Source: an uncultured Butyrivibrio sp. (GTDB lineage: Bacteria; Bacillota; Clostridia; Lachnospirales; Lachnospiraceae). From it: a DNA stretch of 64,000 nucleotides. The position numbers and the translations under genes are program-made. Of the stretch, positions 3,001 to 64,000 are shown piece by piece. The stretch lies in the NCBI GenBank assembly GCA_946536145.1, contig CAMNEA010000003.1, forward strand, positions 31,553 to 95,552, in the 5' to 3' direction. How positions within the stretch are numbered: the first letter of the stretch is position 1; every line of letters begins with the position of its first letter. Under the pieces are notes generated by a model, which had not been told where the DNA came from, did no database searches, and saw nothing but the letters and a program-made list of their open reading frames with translations.

Positions 3001-3503
3001 AGGGTGAGAGCACGGAGGATGCTGTGCTGGGTTCAATATCAACCAGCATAGATCTCGATGTGGACGCATATATACCAAACGAGTATATTCTGAACGAGGA
3101 TCAGAAGCTGGAGATATATAAGAGAATTGCCAGCATTGAGAGCAGGCAGGAGTGCGACGATATGAGGGATGAGCTTATCGACAGGTTCGGTGAGGTGCCG
3201 ACAGCGGCAGACAACCTTCTGCGCATATCTCTTGTCCGCTCTAAGGCGCATGCTCTTTATATTCCCGAGATCAAGGGAGGGCATGGAGAGATTGAGATAA
3301 AAGTAAACCCGAATGCCAGGATAGACGCGGGTAAGATCCCCGGCTTTATTGCGTCCTACAAGGGGGCAATGGCCTTCCACAGCGCCGGGATCCCGGTCTT
3401 TGTGTTTAAATATAAGAAGGATTCAAACCCCGAGAAGGCAGGACAGAAACTTCTTGAGGATACCGAGAACATTGTGGACAGAATGCAGGGTCTTGTCCTA
3501 TGA
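3..3503 (+). CDS. mfd: Transcription-repair coupling factor Mfd, 5' end cut by window edge
   Basis: Frame stays open to base 3 ([24 protein letters not shown]); CarD/RID region ([18 protein letters not shown]), helicase motifs [29 protein letters not shown] motif region and C-terminal domain. Confidence 0.96.
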
Positions 3504-30652: not shown

Positions 30653-31735
30653 ATGATTTCAAACCAGATTTTGCAGAACACAATAGACGGGCTGAAGAAT
30701 ATTGCACATGTGGATCTGTGCGTGCTCGATATTGACGGTAAAGAGGTTGCATCCACTACCGGGGATATCGGGAATGTATCTGCTTCCGCCAGAGATTTTG
30801 TCGAGTCCCCTGCTGACTCACAGGAGATACAGGGCTATCAGTATTTCAAGATTTATGATGAGCAGCAGCTTGAGTATATTCTGATCTGCACGGGAAGCGG
30901 CGACAACGTATATATGCTTGGCAAGATGATCGCCTATCAGATCCAGAGTCTCCTTGTCGCCTACAAAGAACGCTTTGATAAGGACAACTTCATCAAGAAC
31001 CTGCTTCTTGACAATCTGCTTCTGGTGGATATATATTCCAGAGCCAAGAAACTCCATATCCAGAGTGATGCCAGGAGAGTTGCGATGATAATCGAGTGCT
31101 CGGCCAGCCGTGACAGCAACGCCCTTGAGATCACGAGGACATGTGTGGGCAACGGCCTTGATTTTGTAACTGAAGTAGATGAGGACAATGTCATTGTTGT
31201 CAAGGATGTGAGCGACATCAATAAGCCTTCAGAGATATCAAAGGCGGCAGAAGATATACTCGCAGGACTTGAGAAGGAAGGCCTTAGCGATGTCAGGATT
31301 GCCTATGGTACAGTGGTCGGCGAGATCAAGGAAGTCAGCCGGTCCTACAAAGAGGCCAAGATGGCTCTTGATGTAGGCAAGATCTTTTTTGATGAGAGGA
31401 AGGTTATCTGCTACAGCGAGCTGGGAATAGGAAGGCTTATTTATCAGCTCCCGATCCCGCTTTGCAAAATGTTTATAAAGGAGATCTTCGGAGGCAGAAA
31501 TCCTGATGAATTCGATCAGGAGACCCTCACGACAATTGATAAGTTCTTCGAAAATTCACTGAATGTATCAGAGACCTCAAGGCAGCTCTTTATCCACAGG
31601 AACACACTTGTGTACAGGCTTGACAAGCTTCAAAAGAGCACCGGTCTCGACCTGAGAGTCTTTGACGACGCAATTACTTTTAAAATTGCGCTTATGGTTG
31701 TAAGATATATGAAGTATATGGAAAGATTTGTGTGA
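30653..31735 (+). CDS. PucR/CdaR-type helix-turn-helix transcriptional regulator
   Basis: C-terminal NVSETSRQLFIHRNTLVYRLDKLQKSTGLDLRVFDDAITFKIALMV; N-terminal sugar-diacid-recognition-like domain. Confidence 0.88.
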   Translation: MISNQILQNTIDGLKNIAHVDLCVLDIDGKEVASTTGDIGNVSASARDFVESPADSQEIQGYQYFKIYDEQQLEYILICTGSGDNVYMLGKMIAYQIQSLLVAYKERFDKDNFIKNLLLDNLLLVDIYSRAKKLHIQSDARRVAMIIECSASRDSNALEITRTCVGNGLDFVTEVDEDNVIVVKDVSDINKPSEISKAAEDILAGLEKEGLSDVRIAYGTVVGEIKEVSRSYKEAKMALDVGKIFFDERKVICYSELGIGRLIYQLPIPLCKMFIKEIFGGRNPDEFDQETLTTIDKFFENSLNVSETSRQLFIHRNTLVYRLDKLQKSTGLDLRVFDDAITFKIALMVVRYMKYMERFV

Positions 31736-31739
31736 TATA

Positions 31740-31797
31740 GGTTTGCAAAGTCACAAAGTGCTGTGCTTGCACAAAGCACTTTGTGACCTTGCAAACC
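31740..31797. repeat. 58-nt near-perfect inverted repeat after the PucR-type gene
   Basis: GGTTTGCAAAGTCACAAAGTGCT / AGCACTTTGTGACCTTGCAAACC, one mismatch, inner GTGC-TT-GCAC. Confidence 0.9.
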
Positions 31798-31816
31798 GAA
31801 CAGACATGAGGAAGTA

Positions 31817-32104
31817 GCACGATAGTGCGGATTCCGAATGGATGTAGGATTGCGAGAGCGAAGCGAAGCAATCCGTATATCACACAATAAAGTAGAGAGG
31901 TGGAATACAGACGCCGCAAGGCGTCGCGGCACGATAGTGCGGATTCCGAATGGATGTAGGATTGCGAGAGCAAAGCGGAGCAATCCGTATATCACACAAA
32001 AAGTAAAGAGGTGGAATACAGACGCCGCAAGGCGTCGCAGCACGATAGTGCGGATTCCGAGTGGAAGCAGCAGAGCGTATTTCGAGTTCAATCCGTATAT
32101 CACA
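31817..32104. repeat. Tandem repeat, about 111-112-bp period, 2.6 copies
   Basis: Copies begin gCACGATAGTGCGGATTCCGA at 31817, 31929 and 32040; each ends AATCCGTATATCAC; GACGCC-GCAA-GGCGTC hairpin in the unit. Confidence 0.92.
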
Positions 32105-44991: not shown

Positions 44992-45284
44992 TTAGTGTTA
45001 GCATCGGGATATATTATCCAAGTTCCATCGGGGCATTTCAGCCAATCTGCTTAATGACCTCTTTTTCAGAGTGTATTCCTTACCGGATGCATGTCAAGGC
45101 ACGCAAGCTCTAAAGGCCTTGACATGCATCCGGCAAGGAATAATGAGCACCTAAGAGGTCAATAGCATCTAATGCTATCGCATTTGTCAAAATCAGCTGA
45201 TTTCGTATGGTCATTTCATTCCGATACTTATTGGCTAATTTATCCCGATGATATTTGGTGCTTATCGTCCGATGCCAACATTAG
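44992..45284. mobile_element. MITE-like imperfect palindromic element, no ORF
   Basis: Ends TTAGTGTTAGCATCGG / CCGATGCCAACATTAG; centre 27-bp arms 45074-45100 and 45116-45142 with one mismatch, plus TGACCTCTT/AAGAGGTCA. Confidence 0.6.
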
Positions 45285-45387: not shown

Positions 45388-45896
45388 AATAAACATGCCC
45401 AGGTTCAAAACTCTCCGTGAGCATGTATTAATAATGACTTTATAAACATGTTTTTTGAGTTTTTTTTCTTGGGCATGCTTTTGAAAACATGTTTTTTGAA
45501 ATAATTGTTCAGGGCGTGTATTTTTTAGCTTCTTAACTACACGCCCTGCAGAAGAATCATATAAAACATGCATTTTTCAGCTGCGGGTTTCGTGAGAACA
45601 TGATACAAGCATCAAACATGCCCCAGGCGATAACTGACTGAAAACATGTATGAATAAGCACTCGCTAAACATGTTTATTTTCTTTTTTCTCCCTGGCATG
45701 CTTTTGTAAACATGCTTTTTGAAATAAATGTTTTGGGCATGTACTATAGAGCTTATAAACTACACGCGCCGAGAAAAAATCGTATAAAAACATGTATTTT
45801 TCTATTTTTTTATACATGCTTAGAATAGAATTCCCCCAAAAACATGCAGTTACATTTAACGTCATACATGTTATTTGAAAAAATGATTCAGGGCAT
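45388..45896. repeat. CATG-array repeat, locus A (two diverged ~223-bp copies plus a partial third)
   Basis: 18 CATG sites from 45394 to 45893; copies 1 and 2 have CATG/CGTG cores at constant 223-bp offset for six consecutive sites. Confidence 0.88.
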
Positions 45897-45917
45897 GTAT
45901 TTTATATGGATAAAAGT

Positions 45918-46203
45918 GAAAGCGTCGTCCCAGGATTACAAAACAGCTTGGCAGGACGCCGCATAGATCTGTTTCAAGACAGTTTTAAATCAAATCGAGG
46001 CGAAAGCGTCGTCCTAGGATTACAAAACAGCTTGGCAGGACGCCGCATAGATCTGTTTCAAGACAGTTTTAAACCAAATCGAGGCGAAAGCGTCGTCCTA
46101 GGATTACAAAACAGCTTGGCAGGACGACGGATAGATCTGTCTCAAGACAGTTATAAACCAAATTGAGACGAAAGCGTCGTCCTAGGATTACAAAACGGCT
46201 TAT
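45918..46203. repeat. 84-bp tandem repeat, about 3.4 copies
   Basis: GAAAGCGTCGTCC starts at 45918, 46002, 46086 and 46170; near-identical units. Confidence 0.95.
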
Positions 46204-63634: not shown

Positions 63635-63715
63635 GTAGTGGACCAGATCCTCGCAAAGCTAGGAGCGTGTCCTGCCAAAGGCAGGATTCTTGAATGATAT
63701 TGCAGAGACCCGCAG

Positions 63716-63952
63716 GCTGCGGGTTTCGTGGAACATGATATGAGCATCAAACATGCCACAGGCGATAACTGACTGAAAACATGTATGAATAAGCACTCGC
63801 TAAACATGTTTATTTTCTTTTTTCTCCCTGGCATGCTTTTGTAAACATGCTTTTTGAAATAAATGTTTTGGGCATGTACTATAGAGCTTATAAACTACAC
63901 GCGCCGAGAAAAAATCGTATAAAAACATGTATTTTTCTATTTTTTCATACAT
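63716..63952. repeat. CATG-array repeat, locus B; near-identical direct copy of 45580-45817
   Basis: CATG sites at 63734, 63752, 63780, 63805, 63832, 63846, 63873 and 63926, each 18,135 bp from its counterpart in locus A. Confidence 0.95.
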
Positions 63953-63975
63953 TTTTGAATCAAAGATTCAAAAAT
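63951..63975. repeat. 11-bp perfect hairpin at end of locus B
   Basis: ATTTTTGAATC-AAA-GATTCAAAAAT. Confidence 0.9.
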
Positions 63976-64000
63976 GCCGCAAACAAGCCATCCTAATGCG

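Follow-up and report, generated by a model that had tools for sequence, protein, structure and literature searches.

Phased arrays of alternating short sites in Butyrivibrio intergenic DNA and a linked family of predicted PD-(D/E)XK nuclease-like proteins

The 64,000-nucleotide stretch of DNA analyzed here (the window), from an uncultured Butyrivibrio sp., carries an array of RCATGY sites at positions 45388–45896 that is probably a phased array of double-strand DNA binding sites, as predicted from sequence comparisons, for a dedicated protein of an unnamed family of about 270 amino acids. In the gene–array pairs of this family, the array adjoins the gene, each paralog lineage has its own site, the spacing is phased, and the sites are conserved and alternate in orientation. 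We infer that the protein binds its array, with cooperativity and autoregulation. The gene-plus-array system matches no named family that we found. An earlier reading made from the letters alone (the sequence-only reading) had known of no described element with such a layout, which agrees with our literature and database searches. Papers on repeats of Butyrivibrio or Helcococcus, on arrays of CATG and on inverted repeats located upstream yielded nothing relevant within our coverage, outside which most subscription journals fall.

Positions 45394–45894 contain 18 CATG sites within 509 bp, 17 of which extend to RCATGY. First-order Markov sequence is expected to hold 0.5–0.9 RCATGY per 509 bp, with a maximum of 5 in 5000 trials, and the densest stretch elsewhere in the window has three when the array and a copy at 63751 are left out. 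The array consists of two copies of one element, given here without strand. Copy 1 (45393–45571) has CATG at 45394, 45422, 45447, 45474, 45488 and 45567, altered sites at 45515 (CGTG) and 45540 (CACG), and a central inverted repeat GGGCGTGTA..TACACGCCC (45510–45548) that is its best-kept part apart from the CATG sites. Copy 2 (45616–45898) has CATG at 45617, 45645, 45670, 45697, 45711, 45738, 45791, 45815, 45843, 45867 and 45894. The junction between them (45572–45615) includes a 23-bp repeat (45578–45600) and the single CATG that is not RCATGY (45599). Six consecutive sites, one of them CGTG, recur between the copies at an offset of 223 bp, and the seventh at 224 bp. A third copy (63751–63930) is 98% identical to 45601–45790, with its right end shortened by another repeat. 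The sequence-only reading had arrived at the same RCATGY count and the same offset over six sites, and had placed 17 of the 18 CATG correctly, the last being at 45894 rather than 45893; its list of intervals lacked the 79 and 32/18 bp found at the copy junction. Protein coding was rejected as an explanation of the array, as the period of 52–53 bp is not a multiple of 3.

Other repeats lie around these copies. The 23-bp sequence CAGCTGCGGGTTTCGTGAGAACA at 45578–45600 recurs at about 63709–63735 and has some 40 near-identical genomic copies; it is apparently the terminus of a different scattered repeat bordering on the arrays. Two CATG arrays are shortened by a hairpin element TTTTTGAATCA..GATTCAAAAATGC, one at 63953–63985 of the window and the other at about 3015–3050 of locus L068, and at both sites the hairpin is followed by GCAAACAAGCCAT. 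Shortly 5′ of the array, at 45074–45142, is a 27-bp near-perfect inverted repeat TATTCCTTACCGGATGCATGTCAAGGC with a 15-bp loop, enclosed by an inverted 23-bp pair TAGCATCGGGATATATTATCCAA / TTGGCTAATTTATCCCGATGATA (44999–45253) that looks like a separate repeat element. Farther away, at 31731–31884, the window contains a Clostridiales-1 RNA (RF01699, score 119).

The window's own genome (G000), a 2.9-Mb assembly judged 73% complete, has about eleven CATG arrays on eight contigs, and a reversed control pattern finds zero. In a comparison with MITEs, which have terminal inverted repeats and target-site duplications, the array copies of this genome take the form of a large imperfect inverted repeat, and neither a junction nor a duplication was resolved. 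Among eight diverged copies, mean pairwise divergence is 0.047 (4.7%) in CATG columns versus 0.390 (39%) in other columns, and 83% of the site columns are invariant versus 28% of the others; the CATG sites thus do not decay as fast as the spacers, the outcome that the sequence-only reading had named as refuting its claim. An interval of 27–28 bp is fixed in these arrays, while the other interval is mostly 24–25 bp or 14 bp, one helical turn less.

Long CATG arrays with unrelated spacers occur in three more of 60 other genomes of the genus, in which the reversed control pattern exposed, by chance, GTAC arrays at 24 and 28 bp in three genomes. GTAC arrays are scattered in genomes G015, G045 and G032, and every one of these genomes also has a gene preceded by a GTAC-type array. 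Across 85,488 species, CATG arrays turned up in Butyrivibrio X503, INlla21, RGIG3377 and Tb.RUG.513, in several rumen Lachnospiraceae and Clostridiales assemblies, in one assembly labelled Bacteroidales, and at about ten loci in Helcococcus kunzii. Butyrivibrio, the other rumen MAGs and H. kunzii have in common a spacing that alternates between about 24 and 27–29 bp, with unrelated spacers, and some species carry arrays of the same spacing built of GTAC, ACGT or non-palindromic sites. X503 and INlla21 keep one interval fixed at 29 bp, and the second is almost always 23–25 or 44–46 bp, a difference of two helical turns. The arrays are intergenic and scattered, sitting between unrelated genes. 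Scattering is not universal: the GAGTGT/ACACTC family, the one tested in B. proteoclasticus (genome G060, which we take to be the B316 chromosome), turned up at its gene and nowhere else. Two further kinds of match were discounted, namely CATG repeats with period 51 in Methanosphaera and Methanobrevibacter, which resemble coding repeats, and single CATG array matches in unrelated taxa, which were taken as chance. A plasmid or phage origin was rejected, as neither of the two arrays searched had a DNA match.

When 410 ORFs around the arrays were clustered, one family stood out by position. In four species (INlla21, RGIG3377, RUG13622 and RGIG4443) its gene follows a CATG array at a distance of 62–162 bp and has the same orientation, and no other gene recurs close to CATG or GTAC arrays, be it a partner or antitoxin gene or the methyltransferase of a restriction–modification system. 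The protein, of about 270 aa, has zero Pfam or NCBIfam matches, and its C-terminus, which may cleave DNA, resembles PD-(D/E)XK nucleases. Placement in this superfamily draws on conserved acidic residues, profile matches and weak fold matches. The catalytic-type residues K177, E179, E196, D210, E225 and H226 (A1 numbering) are invariant, the C-terminal end of PADLOC PDC-S68 is matched by all 58 members and a PD-(D/E)XK model by 45, and fold searches placed R2 endonuclease, DrdV, Can2, AbaSI and Bax1 near the top, all weakly (best E 5e-3). A PDB sequence search with the family protein returned nothing. In structure models of moderate quality (pLDDT 73 and 81), the N-terminus forms a three-stranded sheet (in the stretch of residues 33–60) and then a long helix, which together are probably the DNA-reading unit.

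The family is present in 20 of the 23 genomes searched, often with 5–9 copies per Butyrivibrio genome, and extends to species without CATG or GTAC arrays. Among 150 sampled genomes of the phylum, the full-length protein was found in two Butyrivibrio only, with a match to the C-terminal domain in two more genomes. The viral and plasmid relatives are C-terminal ends of large proteins, several of which are annotated as helicases or ATPases, and a plasmid origin by way of the protein matches was rejected on this ground. Some members are decaying (L238, L240, L246): the one in G000:C26 has an in-frame TAG, that of G000:C40 survives as a remnant close to the contig's end, and H. kunzii has a disrupted copy with no array. 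In RUG14202 and RUI086 some family genes begin at contig ends, as expected if the arrays break assemblies.

At least five inverted copies of one 6-mer within 600 bp were found upstream of 52 of the 58 family genes, in comparison with 10 downstream and 7 in shuffled sequence. Neighboring sites in the upstream arrays are opposite in orientation in 84% of cases, and the last site precedes the start codon by a median of 75 bp. The sites differ among paralogs and include CATG, GTAC, ACGT, GCGTGTC, TTTCCTGA, ACAGGG, TAGTCA, ACAGCG and many more. The periods of 41 upstream arrays cluster at 51–54, 62–65, 73–75 and 84–85 bp, plus one at 93. A unit of 10.55 bp, which is one turn of the DNA helix, fits them best (R 0.84, Rayleigh p 3e-13), and a unit of 3 does not fit. 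The p-value is too favorable because the genes are related, though the four clusters are plain. Among cross-genome pairs, the site 6-mer is common to 77% at protein identities of at least 70%, 33% at 60–70% and 2% below 40%. Some pairs have the same site in array DNA that does not align, namely L236 and L260 (ACAGCG), and L232 with L234 and L268 (TAGTCA). Relative to the rest of the protein, residues 33–60 diverge more in different-site than in same-site pairs (permutation p 0.0001, on hand-chosen pairs). All of these statistics count related paralogs as independent. The sequence-only reading had proposed selection on DNA-level sites, such as a protein-binding array, and this part of its proposal gains from the helical-turn spacing, the sites kept over diverged spacers and the matching protein family adjoining the arrays.

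In the window's genome, the three other readable family genes are preceded by a 63-bp, a 54-bp and a CTACTGT-type array. A gene preceded by an RCATGY array was not found in this assembly (73% complete), and the cognate gene of the window's CATG arrays may lie in the missing quarter. The search for such a gene was also negative in X503 and H. kunzii, both of which carry scattered CATG arrays; the nearest homologue in X503 has a GCGTGTC array.

Directly adjoining the CATG array is a second one (45918–46201, no strand assigned), a three-fold tandem repeat of 84 bp with inverted GTCGTCC / GGACGCC sites. In its sites, its gap of 17 nt and its period of 84 bp it agrees with the array that precedes a family gene on another contig of the same genome (L239, G000:C105), with different spacers. 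Two arrays of the superfamily thus stand side by side in the window, and the gene on contig C105 is likely the cognate gene of the second. A BLAST search for further GTCGTCC arrays gave one weak match and missed the window's own array, because the sites are common to the two and the spacers differ. At H. kunzii locus L181, CATG arrays are flanked by TTCCTG/CAGGAA, which is the site of the resident paralog L243, so arrays of different families adjoin there too.

In the binding-array reading that we favor, each paralog would read its own short site of 6–8 bp. The sites switch orientation in turn, and their intervals add up to a whole number of helical turns (5, 6, 7 or 8), a spacing that would let the bound proteins pack with a fixed phase. 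One array occupies the promoter region of its cognate gene, whose expression would be controlled by binding there, and in some families extra copies are scattered through intergenic DNA in the way that REP/BIME elements surround RAYT genes. More speculatively, and with limited confidence, the nuclease activity might copy or spread the arrays. Equally tentative is the suggestion that the pairs could form an undescribed class of self-propagating gene–array units, in which a sequence-specific PD-(D/E)XK enzyme maintains its own helically phased arrays and spreads them across bacterial chromosomes, and paralogs diversify to many specificities in a single genome.

The arrays may instead be selfish repeats of the REP/BIME type, which the protein binds and cuts and which repair or replication slippage lengthens and scatters, an alternative that makes the spreading part of the favored reading the main function and that we regard as possible but somewhat doubtful. 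Intergenic copies scattered beside unrelated genes, two copies of 98% identity at a distance of 18 kb, sites that follow the lineage as in REP/RAYT, and the presence of R2 retrotransposon endonuclease among the nearest folds are all consistent with it. However, a comparison of the purF locus, where G015 has the array and G032 and G045 lack it, resolved no insertion junction or target duplication and offered no clean empty site, another repeat being present there in the latter two. In addition, the one B. proteoclasticus family tested is not scattered, and the strong conservation of sites in old copies points to something beyond passive debris. The other repeat in G032 and G045, in the intergenic DNA before the purF-like gene (L287, L288), is a long palindrome AAGGGCGGTTTT..AAAACCGCCCTTATAT unrelated to the GTAC array of G015. 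A Y1/RAYT transposase was rejected as the driver, as none was found in the array genomes G023, G032 and G044 and its presence is uncorrelated with arrays.

It is unlikely that the protein is a harmful or defensive nuclease held inactive by its own sites, with the arrays acting as sinks that cells preserve for this purpose. Such a role would suit the conservation of site columns over diverged spacers, the C-terminal domain in common with defence-candidate helicase-type proteins and the many paralogs of different specificity per genome, but no partner or antitoxin gene recurs beside CATG or GTAC arrays, and arrays remain in genomes that yielded no cognate gene.

The arrays could also be chromosome-organizing or partition sites for a nucleoid protein, the family gene being nearby by accident, and their length, phasing and spread around the chromosome would suit this. 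Such a role is very improbable, given that the array is immediately upstream in 52 of 58 family genes, that the sites follow the protein lineage and that the CATG family is missing from most species of the genus. The sequence-only reading had also named an iteron or partition element, which does not agree with arrays lying beside unrelated genes or a nuclease-like family, with no rep or par gene. We give still less weight to a structured RNA, also raised in that reading, in which a transcript of the array would form hairpins in a row: folding is far superior to that of shuffled sequence for both strands (z −5.8 and −6.2) and the G000 copies keep a central hairpin, but any row of inverted sites would fold well, the two ends of a unit are no more complementary to each other than to the ends of other units, no Rfam family matches the array, and the periods follow the B-DNA helical turn.

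Several known systems resemble the binding arrays in part. Iteron and partition arrays (plasmid Rep, ParB/ParR) likewise consist of repeated sites in phase that adjoin the gene for their binding protein, whereas the family gene here is neither a replication nor a partition gene and the arrays are chromosomal, at many loci, with alternating rather than direct sites. CRISPR arrays, with identical direct repeats of 21–40 bp and unique spacers, were rejected, as the arrays here have short inverted sites and related, diverged spacers. PDC-S68 and helicase-type proteins (PADLOC) have a homologous C-terminal PD-(D/E)XK-like domain but are 1000–1200 aa long, unlike the family here with its about 270 aa, own N-terminal domain and upstream array. 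The nearest solved folds, weak matches to the endonuclease domains of the R2 retrotransposon and DrdV, belong to systems with a reverse transcriptase or methylase, neither of which is present here. CGTC-tagged REPs are 20–40-bp hairpins for which no flanked dedicated enzyme gene was found (PMC3733652), and are similar in being scattered palindromic repeats that lacked a known dedicated enzyme.

By analogy, the closest system in layout is REP/BIME with RAYT, in which short alternating sites are regularly spaced and scattered in intergenic DNA, with the cognate enzyme gene beside one copy (PMC2817692); the sites are lineage-specific in both. In contrast to RAYT, a Y1/HUH transposase, the enzyme here is PD-(D/E)XK-like, and while REPs are hairpins with a GTAG foot, the arrays here are spaced in helical turns of double-strand DNA. 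A REP-type hairpin unit was rejected, as there is no pairing excess at the level of the unit and the cores are CATG, GTAC, ACGT or others depending on the paralog. The arrays also precede the gene and do not flank it on both sides, and many paralogs with different sites share one genome. Unnamed phased intergenic arrays are thereby linked to an unannotated nuclease-like family, whose dozens of natural protein–site pairs, readable from upstream DNA, would be a resource on how small domains read DNA and offer a testable route to the long-standing question of what keeps and spreads scattered bacterial repeats beyond the RAYT case.
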